The translations under genes and the position numbers were made by a program. Under the pieces are notes generated by a model. It worked only from the letters and a program-made list of their open reading frames with translations, was not told the DNA's origin and made no database searches. Shown one piece after another: positions 672 through 11,015 of a stretch of 24,084 nucleotides of DNA (its first letter is position 1; each line of letters opens with the position of its first letter). Source of the stretch: a virus. The stretch covers positions 1 through 24,084 of the IMG/VR virus record IMGVR_UViG_3300031974_002928; one strand, given 5' to 3'.

Positions 672-1094
672 ATGAGCAATATTAGGTGTAGCGGAGCAAT
701 GATTTATTCTCTTGCTACTAGACGATTTTTATTTTTATATAGAAAACAAAGTAAAAACAGCAATGTGTGGGGATTAGTTGGCGGCACTAACGAATATGAA
801 GAGTCTCCGGGCGAAGCATTATATAGAGAAATTGACGAAGAAATAGGTAAAGTAAACATACTTAAAACAATACCTATCGAAACTTTCACAAGTAGAGACA
901 AACGTTTTAAATATTATACTTACGTTTGTACAGTTGAAAACGAGTTTATACCTAAACTAAATGACGAACACTCTGGTTATGCATGGGCAAGTTATAACGA
1001 CTGGCCTCAACCTTTGCATCAAGGTATAGTAAAAACATTGAAAAGTAAAGTAATTAAAAATAAGTTTGAGACAATTTTTTCAGTGCTTCATTAA
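672..1094 (+). CDS. Nudix hydrolase
   Basis: This 140-residue protein carries a nearly perfect Nudix box at residues 38-60: G, five residues, E44, seven residues, then REIDEEIG (52-59). E56 and E57 are the expected Mg2+-binding glutamates. Only the final hydrophobic position is unusual (K60). Family members hydrolyse nucleoside diphosphates linked to another group, such as oxidised dNTPs, NADH, ADP-ribose or capped RNA. The substrate cannot be read from the sequence. T4 also carries a Nudix enzyme (NudE), but this need not be its orthologue. No clear Shine-Dalgarno precedes the ATG, and the short AT-rich spacer suggests translational coupling to the preceding gene. Its stop codon overlaps the stop of the convergent gene. 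Confidence 0.88.
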   Translation: MSNIRCSGAMIYSLATRRFLFLYRKQSKNSNVWGLVGGTNEYEESPGEALYREIDEEIGKVNILKTIPIETFTSRDKRFKYYTYVCTVENEFIPKLNDEHSGYAWASYNDWPQPLHQGIVKTLKSKVIKNKFETIFSVLH

Positions 1095-2135: not shown

Positions 2136-2446
2136 TATGCCACCATATAACTAATTGTAGCAGACAAACTTGTGCTTGCATTGTTAAACGTAACTACATC
2201 GGTTTCTTCTATTATAATTCTAGAAAAATCCCATACAAAAGTATCGCCTGCATCTACAGTAACAGAATTTGCAACTCTGTTTTCGTTATCAACTGATTCG
2301 CCATCTGGCCTAAAATGCAGATCAAATGATTGCGAAGAACCTGAGTTGTTACAAACAATTATATTCAAAATTGCATACTTTGTACTTGCTGGCACAGTCA
2401 ATATGTCAGTGTTACCTGCTGCTAATGTTGCGTTTGCTATTGCCAT
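2135..2446 (-). CDS. Small beta-rich virion protein
   Basis: A 103-residue protein made largely of alternating hydrophobic and polar residues (e.g. ILNIIVCNNSGSSQSFDLHFR and DTFVWDFSRIIIEETDVV), consistent with a small beta-sandwich. It resembles short accessory virion proteins placed between fibre-like genes in marine T4-like phages, but I cannot name a T4 counterpart. An AAGGA ribosome site lies eight bases upstream. Its stop codon overlaps the start of the 264-residue structural gene. Co-assembly or fibre attachment is an inference from neighbourhood only. Confidence 0.6.
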   Translation of the reverse strand: MAIANATLAAGNTDILTVPASTKYAILNIIVCNNSGSSQSFDLHFRPDGESVDNENRVANSVTVDAGDTFVWDFSRIIIEETDVVTFNNASTSLSATISYMVA

Positions 2447-2457
2447 TTTTTAAATCC

Positions 2458-3495
2458 TTAAAATAACATTGCAAAAAGCAATGCTTTATCTTTACTTATA
2501 AGTTCACTTGATGTGCCAGCACTGTTAATGAAGTGTAAACCTGTGTTACCTGCTCCGACTGTATCACCATAAACTTTTACACCTTCGCTAGGAGCAGTTG
2601 GAGCTGATGCATCTTCTGCTTGGAATGTAGTGTTTGTAATAATAATTGCATCATCTGCTCTAATACTTCCTGTACCGCCGGCACTAAGAATAAGATCTGC
2701 ACTTGTACTGTCCGCATTAAGCGTTGAAATTTGATTATCTTGTATTCTTATATTATGAAGCTCTGTACGATTAGAATAAAAATTAAATGGATTTAATCCA
2801 TCTACTTCTACTGCTACTCTACTTTCTTGCAAAGTTACATCTTCGTCTAGCGCTCTTACTTTCGTATCAGCACTGACAATTTGATTAGCCCCTGTGACTG
2901 TAAGTCTATATGTAACTAGATCATTTACTGCTTTAGCGTTTGGTATAGCATCATCATCTATGATATAGCCGCCGCCAAGATCTACAATTATTCCGCCTGC
3001 ATAACGATAAACGTTTTCTTCATAATTTGCTTCGCCAGCTACAGAAATATGACTACCAGGTGTAGTTAAATATAACGTGCCTTGTGCATGAATACTGTTT
3101 GTGCTTAATGGCAAGTGTGCACCTGTAGAGTCTTCTAGTTTAAAACTACCAGTGCCTGACGAGCCAGCAGTGTAAAATGCTGTTTGTTCATCAAAAACAA
3201 TACGTGCATTATTAAGACTACCTCGGTCTAATTCAACTCCTGACTTATAATTAACAGATGCGTTTATACCAGCACCAGTTTCGCCATCGTTTAAAACAAT
3301 TATATTATCGTCTATTGTAACAGTTTCTGATTCAACAGTAGTAGTTGTACCAAGAACTTGTAGGTTTCCTTTAATGACAGTGGTTCCTTGTATAGAACCA
3401 CTGTCACCTGTGGTGTCAAGGGTAATGGTTCCTGAAGAACCGTTATCTACAACTATACTATAATCGTCGTTATGTACTCTAACAATCCTTGACAT
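2458..3495 (-). CDS. Tail-fibre-like structural protein
   Basis: A 345-residue protein. Its N-terminal third contains IKGNLQVLGTTTTVES followed by TVTIDDNIIVLNDGE (about residues 42-75). I recognise this pattern (xGNLxVxGTTTTVxS...TIDDNIIxLN) from large fibre and structural proteins of cyanophages and other marine T4-like phages. The remainder is beta-rich with repeated short strands (DLILSAGGTGSIRADDAI) typical of trimeric fibres. There is no peptidase, chaperone or lectin signature at the C-terminus. It is preceded by AAGGG and follows the MGRPVNK gene by nine bases. A role in host contact or virion decoration is likely but not shown. Confidence 0.72.
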   Translation of the reverse strand: MSRIVRVHNDDYSIVVDNGSSGTITLDTTGDSGSIQGTTVIKGNLQVLGTTTTVESETVTIDDNIIVLNDGETGAGINASVNYKSGVELDRGSLNNARIVFDEQTAFYTAGSSGTGSFKLEDSTGAHLPLSTNSIHAQGTLYLTTPGSHISVAGEANYEENVYRYAGGIIVDLGGGYIIDDDAIPNAKAVNDLVTYRLTVTGANQIVSADTKVRALDEDVTLQESRVAVEVDGLNPFNFYSNRTELHNIRIQDNQISTLNADSTSADLILSAGGTGSIRADDAIIITNTTFQAEDASAPTAPSEGVKVYGDTVGAGNTGLHFINSAGTSSELISKDKALLFAMLF

Positions 3496-3504
3496 GTTTT
3501 ACCC

Positions 3505-3870
3505 TTAAATTGCAGTAAGTCTTAGAATAGACTCTGTTGAGTCATCTTCAGTAGCCCATGTATAACGATTGCCATCATAGTCTATAGCAGTTCTGTTAAA
3601 AAGCTTTGCAATTGCAATTGCTCCGCCACCAGCGCCAATGCCAATAAGTTGACATTCAAAGTTAGCATTAGGTGCAGAACCGTCTGATGTTAGTCTACAA
3701 ATTCTTGTGATTGTATCACCGTCGTTTGAACAGTTAAATTTGTTTGTGCCTCTTTGTGAAAGTATTTTACCTTCAATTAAACTAGAGCCATCGTGGAATC
3801 TAATTGGAATAGTTGGCGTAGCGTCAACACCTGTTGCGCCAAAATTTCTTTTATTTACTGGACGTCCCAT
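3505..3870 (-). CDS. Conserved virion structural protein of marine T4-like phages
   Basis: A 121-residue protein beginning MGRPVNKRNFG and ending with KLFNRTAIDYDGNRYTWATED then a strand ending LRLTAI. This start-and-end signature is one I recognise from a common small structural protein of cyanophages and relatives. The central part has KGTNKF-like and CRL motifs (QRGTNKFNCSNDGDTITRICRL). It is the first gene of the 3870-1091 run, has a strong AAGGAG ribosome site, and lies about 80 bases downstream of a late-type promoter octamer. The exact location in the virion is not known to me. Confidence 0.75.
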   Translation of the reverse strand: MGRPVNKRNFGATGVDATPTIPIRFHDGSSLIEGKILSQRGTNKFNCSNDGDTITRICRLTSDGSAPNANFECQLIGIGAGGGAIAIAKLFNRTAIDYDGNRYTWATEDDSTESILRLTAI

Positions 3871-3960
3871 TTTTTTCTCCTTTGTGACGTTCTAGGTCTA
3901 CGCTGTGGGTACAGCATAAGTCCTCATCATTGAGGTTCTCTCTATGACATTGTATTTATC
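3871..3960 (-). promoter_or_regulatory. Late-type promoter and structured leader of the virion gene run
   Basis: GATAAATA on the minus strand (3960-3953) differs from T4 TATAAATA at the first base. The leader to the ATG at 3870 is about 75 nt and carries two perfect small hairpins: 3922-26/3931-35 and 3902-06/3911-15. The AAGGAG ribosome site (3876-3883) is left free. The long hairpin-bearing leader is unlike the other genes here, whose leaders are 20-30 nt. Confidence 0.6.
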
Positions 3961-3973
3961 AACATAAGAGAAA

Positions 3974-3998
3974 AGGCATGCTGCAAAACAACATGCCT
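3974..3998 (-). terminator. Intrinsic terminator hairpin
   Basis: A 10-bp stem (3974-3983 with 3989-3998) around a 5-nt loop. Pairing is unbroken on the minus strand thanks to a G-U pair, whereas the plus strand has a C-A mismatch, so minus is the better sense. U-rich sequence follows on both sides. It separates the structured RNA from the downstream late promoter. Confidence 0.7.
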
Positions 3999-4004
3999 TT
4001 TTCT

Positions 4005-4183
4005 ATAAAAAAATAGGTGAAGGATTAAGGATTACCTTCAATGGGTCTTTGGCAGACTCCTGTCTACTCGACCCAAACCTACCTGCATCTGCTAAGACGG
4101 GAAGCTATCCCCTTCGGTATTACTTTATCCGCATCTGCCACGGATTATTCAGTCAACCTATATTGTAACAACGTCTTGTTACA
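4005..4183 (-). ncRNA. Candidate structured RNA with its own promoter
   Basis: A predicted start near 4183 would place an 8-bp hairpin (4164-71/4176-83, GACG loop) at the 5' end. A helix joins the two ends of the body (4013-18 with 4056-61's counterpart at 4156-61, six pairs and more with wobble) and is followed by a run of seven U, which could form the 3' end near 4005. Inside are helices 4019-23/4035-39, 4042-47/4070-75, 4054-57/4062-65, 4099-103/4108-12 and 4127-31/4141-45. The loop of the last (4134-40) is complementary over 7 nt to 4050-56, a possible pseudoknot that competes with 4054-57/4062-65. G-U pairs favour the minus strand. I recognise no known RNA family. Confidence 0.65.
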
Positions 4184-4189
4184 TTGTTT

Positions 4190-4217
4190 AATATACAGTC
4201 TTTGTTTATAAAGTCAA
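4190..4217 (-). promoter_or_regulatory. Promoter for the structured RNA
   Basis: On the minus strand TTGACT (4217-4212) and TATATT (4195-4190) are 16 bp apart, giving a start near 4183 at the foot of the 5' hairpin. TATAAACA, one mismatch from the late octamer, lies between them (4209-4202), so late transcription is also possible. It is located just after the gp23 terminator. Confidence 0.6.
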
Positions 4218-4228
4218 CCAAAAAAAGT

Positions 4229-4256
4229 CAAAAAAATAGGGCCCGTAGGCCCTATT
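4229..4256 (-). terminator. Strong intrinsic terminator after gp23
   Basis: A perfect 9-bp stem AATAGGGCC / GGCCCTATT (4235-43 with 4248-56) closed by a UACG tetraloop on the minus strand, followed by a U-rich tract. It starts 19 bases beyond the gp23 stop codon and marks the end of the head-gene transcript. Confidence 0.88.
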
Positions 4257-4274
4257 TTATAAAATAAACTTAAC

Positions 4275-5447
4275 TTAGCTAAAGGATACGTTACCGTTAG
4301 TAATAGCAACCTCAGCTAGGTAGTCACCAGCGTTACCTAGCGACGAAGCAGTGTTAGAAAGCTCAACATAGCCGTAGCGTGTTAAGAAGCTAACTACTGG
4401 TTCGAATGTGCTAGGATCTAGTACCACACCACTTGACATTAGCGGGATGTATGGGCAATAGAACGCTGCTGCATCAGACTCAGAAGAACCTTTGTAACCA
4501 ACAAGTACAGCTTGGCCGTCACCTGCATAAGTGTTTACGTAGATCTTCATAGCGTTGTTTAGAGTACCAACCATCTTTGTGTTAGTTGGTGCTTCAAAAG
4601 TACCTTCAGTTGTACGAGCGAACGCAGAAGTAGTTGCAGACTGAAGAATTGTAAGTGCGAATGGACTTACAACTGCCCAGTTACCTGCGCCACGACGTGT
4701 ACGCTGTGCAATTAGGTTAGCTGCACGGTTGATTTGAACTGCAAGTGCTGCGTGCTCGTCACCAACGAATGTAGCTGTACCAGACACTGCTGCCTGATCG
4801 TATGTTTCAACTGTACCAGCAAGTGTACCTAGGCTAGCTAGGATCTCTTGGTCGATTTCAGCTGTAATTTCTTGTGCTAGAGCAGCCATGATCTCAGCTT
4901 CAACATCAATACCATGCTGTGACTGTGCATCCTGTGCAGCTTCAAAAGTCCAGCGAGCGGATAGCTTACGTGACTTAGCTTCAACAGTTTGCTTTAGGAT
5001 CTGAATGCTTAAACGGTTACCAGCGGAACCTTCTAGGTTAGCTGTGTTAGCACCTTTACCTGTAGAAGTGTTACCGGAGTAAGCTTCTGCAATCTTGAAT
5101 GGTGAAAGTGCTTCTTCACCTGCAACTGCACCACTTGCACCAGAACCAGCTGTGTCGCTGTAGCGAACACGTAGAGTGTGGATCTGACCAACTGGACCTG
5201 TCATTGGCTGTACACCAACGATTTCGTTTGCAATTACAGTCGGCATTACACGTCTGATCACTGGTAGGATCACACGGTTAAGGGTAGCAACGTTACCTGC
5301 ACCAGTTGCACCAGCAGTCGCGGTTTCCATCAAGTGCTTACGAGTGTTTTCGAGAGTTGCTTCCATTACGGATTTTTTGTTACCGTTTAGGCCTTCAAGC
5401 AAAGCACTTTTAGTGTCGTGCCAGCGACCTTCTAGTAGTTCTGACAT
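4275..5447 (-). CDS. gp23: Major capsid protein gp23
   Basis: A 390-residue protein with the hallmark NRVILPVIRRVMPTVIANEI segment (about residues 57-76), continuing into GVQPMTGPVGQIHTLRVRY, which is diagnostic of the T4 gp23 family. It forms the hexameric shell of the head. T4 gp23 has an N-terminal propeptide removed by gp21 after (L/I)-x-E. Here HLME (ending E41) is the best-placed cleavage candidate, with several other LxE-like sites before it. It is shorter than T4 gp23 (521 residues), as in many marine relatives. A strong AAGGAGAG ribosome site precedes the ATG, and a strong intrinsic terminator follows the stop within 20-40 bases. It is the last gene of the gp20-to-gp23 head module. 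Confidence 0.97.
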   Translation of the reverse strand: MSELLEGRWHDTKSALLEGLNGNKKSVMEATLENTRKHLMETATAGATGAGNVATLNRVILPVIRRVMPTVIANEIVGVQPMTGPVGQIHTLRVRYSDTAGSGASGAVAGEEALSPFKIAEAYSGNTSTGKGANTANLEGSAGNRLSIQILKQTVEAKSRKLSARWTFEAAQDAQSQHGIDVEAEIMAALAQEITAEIDQEILASLGTLAGTVETYDQAAVSGTATFVGDEHAALAVQINRAANLIAQRTRRGAGNWAVVSPFALTILQSATTSAFARTTEGTFEAPTNTKMVGTLNNAMKIYVNTYAGDGQAVLVGYKGSSESDAAAFYCPYIPLMSSGVVLDPSTFEPVVSFLTRYGYVELSNTASSLGNAGDYLAEVAITNGNVSFS

Positions 5448-8299: not shown

Positions 8300-9031
8300 T
8301 TAATTAAATAAATTTATAAATGTTTCTTTGTGCAGTGTTTGTAAATTACTAAATTTTAAATCTTCTGGCATGAATGTATCAGGCTCTACTACTCTAACAA
8401 ATTGAACTTTTGTATGTTGCTGTATTACAGTTTTAGTTTGTTTAAGCCAATTTCCGTGATAAGTTGCACCGTCAGTTGACTTTTTATAATTGTTTGTATC
8501 TGCATACATGTTATTAAATTTTGAGCCATTGTTCAAACCTTTGTAGTCAAAACCTAAGATATAGATGGTTTTAGCGCCGTTTTCTATTGCTAAATTCAAG
8601 GCTGTAGGCCCACTACTCCAACCTTTACTAGGCTTAAAATAGTTTAAATTTTTAAATTTTTCGTAAGCTTTGTTATAATTTGTCCATACAGAATTGTGTA
8701 CGTTGTACCCTTCTCTGTTTATTTCCATTACCATTTTTACGTCAACAGCTATCAAATGATGAGGCCTGTGATTGCGATAAAGAGCATTACACCCATACAC
8801 AATCCCGTGATTCATTAATGCGTCTATATCAATACCACGCCTACTTGTTCCGTTGCCTATTACAAACGCTGTTACTCCAGAAGTTTTAGGAAGTTCAACA
8901 GGTTTTTCTATTATATTAGGTTGGGATATTGGATTATTTTTGCGTTCTCTTTTAAGTTTTTTCTGTTGTAATTTACGCTTAAGAGATCTATACTCTTCTT
9001 TGGTATACTTGCTTTTATCAATTTTGCCCAT
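8300..9031 (-). CDS. Rossmann-like protein resembling DUF115 / GT42-type transferases
   Basis: A 243-residue protein. Residues 1-32 are a basic helix rich in Lys and Arg. From residue 53 it shows AFVIGNGTSRRGIDID (nucleotide-binding-like GNG-S), then VYGCNALY (78-85), a middle HHLIAVDVKM, then WSSGPTALNLA (138-148) and TIYILGFDYKG (155-165). This order (GNGxS, CNxxY, GxxAxxxA, IYLxGxDF) is what one sees in sialyltransferase-like GT42 enzymes and DUF115 proteins, so a nucleotide- or sugar-nucleotide-binding fold is a reasonable reading. The substrate is unknown. It sits inside the head module, six bases after the 78-residue gene. Virion glycosylation or host-surface modification are both possible; neither is shown. 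Confidence 0.55.
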   Translation of the reverse strand: MGKIDKSKYTKEEYRSLKRKLQQKKLKRERKNNPISQPNIIEKPVELPKTSGVTAFVIGNGTSRRGIDIDALMNHGIVYGCNALYRNHRPHHLIAVDVKMVMEINREGYNVHNSVWTNYNKAYEKFKNLNYFKPSKGWSSGPTALNLAIENGAKTIYILGFDYKGLNNGSKFNNMYADTNNYKKSTDGATYHGNWLKQTKTVIQQHTKVQFVRVVEPDTFMPEDLKFSNLQTLHKETFINLFN

Positions 9032-9036
9032 GGTAT

Positions 9037-9273
9037 TTAGATAGATGCTTGATCAGGGACCTTATACATATCACGTATTTTAGAAAGTTCTTCTTGTTTT
9101 TCAGAATTATGAAAATCGCTAGCAAGGCGTGCACGATTTATGTCTTTCAGACATAGCCTAGTAACTCGTGTATCCGACGGATCAACAACAGATTGATCGT
9201 AGCTGTTGTCATAGCTAGGATCTTCTACATTCTCTAGGTTATCGTCAAAATAGAAAAATTCTCTTAAAAACAT
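9037..9273 (-). CDS. Small acidic protein downstream of the portal gene
   Basis: A 78-residue protein starting MFLREFFYFDD, acidic in its first half and with a helical, charged C-terminal half (INRARLASDFHNSEKQEELSKIRDMYK). Small genes occupy the space after gp20 in T4-like phages (gp67 in T4). The length fits gp67 (80 residues), but the sequence does not allow me to call it so, and the long acidic protein at 7218-8105 is the better core-protein candidate. The first ATG has a TTAGGAAT ribosome site that falls between the gp20 stop and this start. Confidence 0.6.
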   Translation of the reverse strand: MFLREFFYFDDNLENVEDPSYDNSYDQSVVDPSDTRVTRLCLKDINRARLASDFHNSEKQEELSKIRDMYKVPDQASI

Positions 9274-9287
9274 AACTTTATTTATTC

Positions 9288-11015
9288 CTAAATTCCGCCT
9301 GCGCCGCCTGCTGGGGGAGTTTCCCCTGCTTCCGGCGGAGATGTTGCTGTTTCTGGTGCAGTGCCTTCTTGTGGTACTGCATCTCCTAGATCATCTCCCG
9401 GTGCTTCAGTATCTAGTGCTCCTAAATCAGCACCGATGCCAGCGCCACTGATGCCAGCTGATCTCATTTCTGCACTAGGGTCCATAGCAGCAGCATCAGC
9501 GTCTTCACCGTTTTCTTCTTGCCACAATATTTCGTTTTCTTTGATTTCTTCTTCAGTAAGACCTAAGAAACGACTCATTGCAAATCTATTTGAAATATAT
9601 GGTAGAGCAGCCATTTGTCCGAATGTTGGAACTCTTGCATTATCTAGTTCTGCTTGTCTATAACTTGCAAAGTTTTGTGGCTTTACAAATGTCAAGTCAA
9701 ACATTTCAGTGTCAATGTTAACGCCTTTTTCTAATAGATATCTTTTAAATTCTCTATTAAATGTTTCTACAAGTAAGCCTTGTAGTCTTTCACAGTAAGT
9801 GTTGAAACGCAGTTCTTGAATGTATGCTGTACCAACTCTACCGTCTTGGAAATTATTTGCACCGTCATCTGCGCCGGTTGGCAAATAGCTCGAAGGAATA
9901 CGTAGTCCACGCACAAGTTTGTTAGTAAAATAGCGTAAGTCGTCGATCTCACCAAGGTTAGTACCGCCTGGTAGTGTTTCTACTTTAGAACCTCTACCTT
10001 CTGCTGTTTGCGGGAAGAAGTAGTCTTCGTTTATGCTAAGTGGGTTGTAGCTTGAATCAATAACATTAGTGCCGCCACCTGTAGCACTTGGTATTCTACG
10101 TTGATGAATTTCTGTTTTTACTCTTTCTACAAACTGCATAGCTAAGTGTGCAGGCATGTTACCAACGTCAACGTAAAATACTCTACGTTCTGGTGCACGC
10201 TGTACTCTATAGATAATAATTGCGTCTTCTAGCAATTCTTTCTGCTTGTAAACTTTGAATACAGTTTCTAACAAACTATTACCAAACGGAAAGTTGTTGT
10301 CTAGTCCTTCGCTCAAACTTAGATGTAAAACATGTTCAGCACCTACGCCAAGTTCTTGTTGTTCTCTGTAAAATCTAGAACCAGCTTGTTGAGCAGCGTT
10401 GCCTACCATACCTCGTGCTCCGCCAGTAGCGTATGCAGGATTACCGCCTTGTATGTTTCCGCTGGTTTGATGAGGTGTAGTTGCAATACCTTCTACAAAA
10501 TTAAAGTTGATGTCTCTAATTACATATTGTTCAGGTGTTTTGCCCTGGCTCTCGTTTACAATAATTCTCGAAACTTTAGCTGGATCTATATGATAGAGTT
10601 TTTTAGTTTCTGGATCTCTTAAGAATATTTCGTCACCGTACTTAAACACGTTTCTAAAAATTCTAAACATTCTAGTGTCGAAGTCATTTAGTTTGCACCA
10701 CTGCCTCATGTACTGCGTAAGTATTTGTACTTCTGAACTAGTAGCAGGTTTGTTAAATTCAAAATCAAAATGATTACCTTGATGATTTTTTTGTGTACAA
10801 AATTCTGCTAGGATGTCTAGTGCAGCATTTACCTCACTGTCCATGTCCATGGTATTGTACTGACCATAACGTTCAACACGGTTAGGTGAACCGACGTACA
10901 CGTCTGGCAAATAGCTACTGTAGTTTGCACTAGCTGGTCCGCTTGCATTTGTAGATGCGCCGCTTATAGGACTAGCAGAACCGTCATAGGGTGTAAAATA
11001 TTTTTTCCAACTCAT
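9288..11015 (-). CDS. gp20: Portal vertex protein gp20
   Basis: A 575-residue portal protein of the T4 gp20 family. Diagnostic segments are EVNAALDILAEFCTQ (61-75), VQRAPERRVFYVDVGNMP (271-288), the NEDYFFPQ region, and the TLPGGTNLGEIDDLRYF stretch near 350-370. The dodecameric portal nucleates prohead assembly and later serves as the DNA packaging and exit channel. It is slightly longer than T4 gp20 (524). The extra length is a Pro/Gly/Ala/Glu-rich C-terminal tail from about residue 505 onward that looks disordered. In T4 gp20 follows gp19; here it is the first gene of its operon, with a divergent Sm-like gene upstream. A late-type promoter octamer CATAAATA lies 25 bases upstream of the ATG. 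Confidence 0.97.
   Translation of the reverse strand: MSWKKYFTPYDGSASPISGASTNASGPASANYSSYLPDVYVGSPNRVERYGQYNTMDMDSEVNAALDILAEFCTQKNHQGNHFDFEFNKPATSSEVQILTQYMRQWCKLNDFDTRMFRIFRNVFKYGDEIFLRDPETKKLYHIDPAKVSRIIVNESQGKTPEQYVIRDINFNFVEGIATTPHQTSGNIQGGNPAYATGGARGMVGNAAQQAGSRFYREQQELGVGAEHVLHLSLSEGLDNNFPFGNSLLETVFKVYKQKELLEDAIIIYRVQRAPERRVFYVDVGNMPAHLAMQFVERVKTEIHQRRIPSATGGGTNVIDSSYNPLSINEDYFFPQTAEGRGSKVETLPGGTNLGEIDDLRYFTNKLVRGLRIPSSYLPTGADDGANNFQDGRVGTAYIQELRFNTYCERLQGLLVETFNREFKRYLLEKGVNIDTEMFDLTFVKPQNFASYRQAELDNARVPTFGQMAALPYISNRFAMSRFLGLTEEEIKENEILWQEENGEDADAAAMDPSAEMRSAGISGAGIGADLGALDTEAPGDDLGDAVPQEGTAPETATSPPEAGETPPAGGAGGI

Follow-up and report, generated by a model that had tools for sequence, protein, structure and literature searches.

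A manA RNA with a predicted promoter and terminator of its own in the gap after gp23 of a T4-like phage

The gap that follows the major capsid gene of this T4-like phage raises the question of whether it holds an RNA gene in its own right or the leader of the gene behind it. The window analysed here is the whole stretch of 24,084 nucleotides, positions 1 to 24,084 of IMG/VR record IMGVR_UViG_3300031974_002928. An initial annotation had placed in a gap of about 400 bp an independent structured RNA gene, read from the minus strand and insulated by terminators. The gap measures 404 bp on the minus strand, from the end of gp23 at 4275 to the start of the next ORF at 3870. Sequence comparison supports the independence of the RNA gene through a family match, a promoter and a terminator of its own, the conservation of both signals, and a lack of co-adaptation between terminator and aptamer. 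In minus-strand order, gp23 and the elements that follow it are:

4275-5447, minus strand: gene for a gp23-like major head protein, preceding the RNA gene (PHROG 138, E 1.1e-99)
4233-4258, minus strand: intrinsic terminator of gp23, AAAATAGGGCC TACG GGCCCTATTTT TTT
4190-4217, minus strand: sigma70-like promoter of the RNA, with a -35 TTGACT at 4217-4212, a 16-nt spacer and a -10 TATATT at 4195-4190 (10/12 matches)
4009-4183, minus strand: manA RNA (RF01745), matched over the full model (1-192 of 192) with 63.7 bits, gathering score 55.2, E 2.7e-14 (Rfam)
3971-4001, minus strand: intrinsic terminator of the RNA gene, AAAAGGCATGTTGTTTTGCAGCATGCCTTTT then CTCTTATGTT, -18.1 kcal/mol

The gp23 product shares 66-70% identity with the capsid proteins of T4-like jumbo phages. 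A MutT/NUDIX hydrolase gene (672-1094, plus strand; PHROG 1198, E 2.3e-25) runs in the opposite direction to the capsid genes. A plus-strand ORF of 56 aa at 4041-4211, which overlaps the manA RNA on the opposite strand, was dismissed as a chance frame.

The match to manA exceeds the curated covariance-model cut-off across the whole model, and the landmarks of the family consensus alignment are present, namely a 5' hairpin with a GACG loop, a closing helix that joins the two ends, and a 3' hairpin with the conserved GGUA...UCC. The Rfam check that had been proposed for this locus thus identifies a fold that is already catalogued, and the structure is not new. The 5' hairpin at the predicted start, the body closed by pairing of its ends and the U-run (4015-4009, minus strand), all noticed earlier from the letters, were recovered. 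The elements of the fold are:

4164-4183, minus strand: manA 5' hairpin, TGTAAC-AAGACGTT-GTTACA, at the predicted transcript start
4156-4160, minus strand: 5' strand of the closing helix, UAGGU, which pairs with ACCUA (Rfam manA alignment)
4014-4018, minus strand: 3' strand of the closing helix, ACCUA (Rfam manA alignment)
4019-4039, minus strand: 3' hairpin, GAAGG-UAAUCCUUAAU-CCUUC, holding the most conserved bases of the manA family

Selection on an RNA of the minus strand had also been proposed. A strand bias in folding exists (-53.1 kcal/mol and z -2.86 for the minus strand, -44.6 and z -2.34 for the plus strand) but it is modest, and the decisive strand evidence is the covariance-model match, which lies on the minus strand. 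Only manA and freshwater-2 pass among the Rfam models in the window, with no match to the GOLLD, ROOL, tmRNA or tRNA models. For the manA family, found in marine sequences, cyanophages and gamma-proteobacteria, Weinberg et al. in 2010 rated structure and cis-regulation as certain and a riboswitch function as probable (PMC2864571). Rfam classes it as cis-regulatory, a probable riboswitch, and the cis-regulatory label is repeated in later cyanophage papers (PMC9964418, PMC10665884).

The TTGACT-16-TATATT promoter was found where it had been read, on the minus strand. Promoter-like sites number 9 in the 2.5-kb region, compared with 4.2 in shuffles; taken alone the window promoter is not significant, and its significance comes from conservation at the corresponding place before the RNA in relatives. 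The true intrinsic terminator is the hairpin at 4001-3971, beyond the U-run, so that the predicted transcript is about 215 nt long and not about 180 nt as first suggested, the end of the RNA having been set slightly early. This transcript would probably extend from about 4184 to about 3967. The RNA therefore has, as judged by sequence, what is looked for in a stand-alone small RNA gene: a promoter and a terminator of its own, at a conserved distance from the fold.

Relatives were collected as viral contigs encoding a relative of the 121-aa protein downstream (77 loci) or of gp23 (80 loci), with further contigs picked by a short manA pattern alone, and were searched with a covariance model built in this analysis (R1). 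A TTGAC-N15/18-TATATT-like promoter, the RNA and the 3' end of the RNA were recovered together in 37 distinct sequences, in most of which a terminator and GATAAATA come next. The call for a covariation check is answered by 16 of the 18 consensus pairs, which show changes on both sides that preserve pairing in a MAFFT alignment where the window itself is poorly aligned, and by the 48 significantly covarying pairs of the family given in the Rfam 14 paper (PMC7779021). As the window RNA aligns poorly with its divergent relatives in MAFFT, its own assignment to manA is based on the Rfam model instead. Searches of related loci, at or near the gp23-adjacent site, recovered manA in 29 of 53 and in 26 of 69. 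Rapid loss in close relatives, which had been named as evidence that would speak against the RNA, is therefore partly true: the RNA was detected in these loci and not in the rest. Found in only part of the related loci, manA appears to come and go at a fixed site, and its distribution fits a cassette gained and lost there.

Removal of near-identical copies left a non-redundant set of 75 manA RNAs, 74 of which were scored for downstream context; the sample is biased to gp23-linked loci and to one sequence subfamily, and its fractions do not describe the whole manA family. Promoters, called as consensus matches, scored at least 10/12 within 60 nt upstream of the RNA in 60 of the 75, compared with 3% of shuffled flanks. 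The distance from the end of the -10 box to the start of the RNA is 2-16 nt, with 27 copies at exactly 4 nt. Of the 74 copies, 36 have a terminator no more than 90 nt downstream (2.75 expected from dinucleotide shuffles), a tRNA or tmRNA gene adjoins manA in 11, and an ORF with a ribosome-binding site follows at 18-130 nt, with no terminator detected, in 18; ten copies fit none of these classes. The ORFs behind terminator-less copies include gp32, rubrerythrin-like, peroxiredoxin-like and other genes. In one relative (L219) manA is flanked by both a promoter and a terminator, and the gene behind it is encoded on the opposite strand.

Blastn searches of phage records with the RNA of one relative (L012) and that of cyanophage S-CREM1 matched no other isolate; the manA sequence diverges too fast for blastn, so that covariance models are needed. 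A degenerate pattern scan of bacterial genomes gave essentially chance matches, with only weak R1 scores. One of the scanned genomes, a Photobacterium, had a true manA elsewhere. Of 50 Photobacterium genomes, 6 have a manA RNA; its position in the chromosome is conserved, a TATAGT box stands a few bases upstream, and a membrane-protein/stomatin gene pair follows about 250 nt downstream.

Among cultured phages, the cyanophages P-HM1 and S-SSM5 show the layout of the window, with manA immediately behind gp23 and with promoter and terminator present. In these two phages and in P-SSM2 the -35 TTGACA lies inside the hairpin of the upstream gene's terminator (GGGTGCTTGACACCC or a similar sequence), with TATAAT and then the RNA downstream; upstream terminator and manA promoter thus overlap. 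P-SSM2 is a leader-like exception, with manA 15 nt before purL. The manA of S-SSM7 ends one base before a tRNA-Gly, and that of S-CREM1 (10215-10429) is fitted with almost no spacer between a tRNA-Leu ending at 10213 and a tRNA-Asn starting at 10429. Three relatives (L240, L262, L271) have a permuted tmRNA directly upstream, with manA within about 10-15 nt, and in a fourth (L244) the order is tmRNA, tRNA-Gly, manA. The permuted tmRNAs encoded by these four phages are of the alphaproteobacterial type. A further relative (L217) has a GOLLD RNA (9001-9447, minus strand) in a large tRNA array, with manA about 90 nt downstream and a tRNA-Met 9 nt after manA. In the reference genomes of P-HM1 (112705-112881), S-SSM5 (116417-116623) and S-SSM7 (151441-151572) hypothetical proteins are annotated over manA; these ORFs are probably spurious.

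Downstream of the manA terminator, the remainder of the gap leads into the next gene:

3953-3960, minus strand: T4-type late promoter motif GATAAATA of the next gene, beyond the manA terminator, in nearly all aligned relatives
3868-3936, minus strand: freshwater-2 RNA (RF02980), 51.0 bits, gathering score 49.9, ending on the start codon of the next gene
3505-3870, minus strand: gene for a 121-aa protein, MGRPVNKRNFG..., conserved after the RNA cassette, with 77 viral relatives

Since manA and freshwater-2 are each matched and each have signals of their own, the gap is read as two predicted RNA units, manA with its host-type promoter and terminator, then a late mRNA leader. The next gene's own predicted late promoter is separate from the manA unit. 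The 121-aa protein has no PHROG or Pfam match. About a dozen relatives have freshwater-2 at the corresponding position, and the order late promoter, freshwater-2, ribosome-binding site and ATG of the MGRPxNK protein precedes this gene family in many relatives; in one of them (L078) about 520 nt separate freshwater-2 from the matched gene downstream, and the RNA stands before a different ORF with an MGRP start. Freshwater-2 is thus a candidate leader of late phage genes that may act by autoregulation or on translation. Other cargo was seen at this site. Glutamine riboswitch aptamers lie between gp23 and the manA promoter in three relatives (L032, 1897-1943; L046, 2456-2503; L079, 4234-4281), each with an AAATA-type late-like motif before it and a very small basic ORF after it. 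In two others (L009 and L011, about 2200-3000) manA is replaced by a sigma70-like promoter, an ORF of about 150 aa resembling a membrane protein, and a terminator. It seems that RNA-controlled cassettes are carried as cargo in the gap behind gp23.

The alternative that survives best, although we consider it unlikely, is the suggestion of Weinberg et al. (2010) that manA is a riboswitch, for which the terminator at 4001-3971 would be the expression platform; ligand binding would allow transcription to continue into freshwater-2 and the 121-aa gene. Promoter, aptamer-like RNA, terminator and gene do stand in the order of an attenuating riboswitch, manA is filed by Rfam and by the original description (PMC2864571) among cis-regulatory elements, as a probable riboswitch, and about one quarter of manA copies lie just before an ORF. 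Such a platform is expected to pair better with its own manA. When terminators were swapped between loci, the 5' arm of the terminator paired with its own manA at -8.98 kcal/mol and with that of others at -8.95 (n=35, p=0.88), and this lack of excess leaves an antiterminator design unsupported. Terminator sequences are interchangeable among relatives, and no aptamer-coupled expression platform was found by antiterminator pairing, the design tested, other switch designs being possible. Nor does the window copy have the arrangement of a 5' UTR cotranscribed with its gene: the terminator is followed by the late promoter of the next gene, whose ribosome-binding site falls in a separate predicted transcript. 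Elsewhere, the genes downstream of manA are highly diverse or lie on the opposite strand, and there are copies inside tRNA arrays and after tmRNA, all of which argues against a switch.

Somewhat less probable again is that manA serves as a protective or processing 5' module, which stabilises whatever RNA follows and has no target of its own. Such a module would explain why most copies begin where transcription is predicted to start, and why what follows is so varied (terminator, gp32, stress genes, tRNAs). However, the deep conservation of unpaired bases, the structure of about 200 nt and the covarying pairs of the family (PMC7779021) exceed the needs of a stabiliser, many units contain manA alone, and in tRNA arrays manA is internal and not 5'. 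That the gap is ordinary intergenic DNA with RNA features arising by chance has next to no probability, frequent as lone promoter matches are in AT-rich DNA, and is already refuted by the match to a curated covariance model at E 2.7e-14 and by the conservation of the promoter, with promoter, fold and terminator kept together across dozens of relatives.

We favour, with a probability of roughly 0.7, the reading that the manA of the window is an independent, trans-acting phage RNA made by a host-type RNA polymerase, and not the leader of the downstream gene. A host sigma70-type polymerase would start at about 4184, the first base of the 5' hairpin, transcribe the manA fold and stop at the 4001-3971 hairpin, which would release a free RNA of about 215 nt. 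We infer transcription itself, early or middle rather than late timing, action in trans and a partner; the free RNA would probably be made earlier than the late structural genes and would act as a folded RNA. Because the capsid and virion genes on either side possess a T4-type late promoter or a terminator of their own, the manA RNA would not be their leader. Other copies are found with tRNA arrays, phage tmRNA and GOLLD, which suggests a place in the stable-RNA set of these phages, perhaps in binding a host protein or a translation component; such a role is the simplest conjecture, and confidence in it is low. The initial annotation had offered a regulatory RNA, or a decoy or sponge directed at the host, as possible functions. 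Against this model, the 18 of 74 terminator-less copies before an ORF, purL in P-SSM2 and the Photobacterium stomatin operon point to a real or possible 5'-UTR role in part of the family.

The predicted layout in the window and in most of the phage copies sampled contradicts the cis-regulatory label. This is what is new here, the family itself being known, and our literature search, in which most subscription papers and preprints were outside coverage, returned no paper describing manA as a stand-alone RNA. We put it at slightly better than even that manA is mainly no riboswitch but a noncoding RNA that acts in trans and is widespread among marine T4-like phages, carried as a promoter-RNA-terminator cassette after the capsid gene or in tRNA/tmRNA arrays, made by the host polymerase and acting on a host or phage factor. 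manA has been an orphan riboswitch candidate since 2010, and if the free-RNA reading is true this long-standing candidate has been misclassified. If most phage copies are free RNAs, ligand hunts by way of downstream genes look in the wrong place, and the partner of manA is to be sought during infection. The arrangement after gp23 is shared by P-HM1 and S-SSM5, which opens the question to direct tests with laboratory host-phage systems.

Several known systems resemble this locus. Like GOLLD and ROOL, manA would be a stand-alone structured phage RNA found near tRNA genes, and one copy adjoins GOLLD (L217); those RNAs differ in being far larger (416 positions in the GOLLD model), in having another fold and in having no match in the window. 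Freshwater-2 (RF02980) shares the gap with manA but is predicted to serve as a genuine leader, transcribed from the late promoter of the next gene, and a terminator separates the two. The manA of S-CREM1 (PMC9964418) belongs to the same family by covariance model, with 96.6 bits, whereas it sits in a tRNA array and its authors list manA as cis-regulatory. To manA as described (RF01745; PMC2864571) the window copy corresponds in its full-length match above the gathering score, in its marine T4-like phage context and in its complex multi-helix fold with paired ends. It differs from the described 5'-UTR, cis-acting element in having a predicted promoter and terminator of its own, and in being followed by a gene with its own late promoter.
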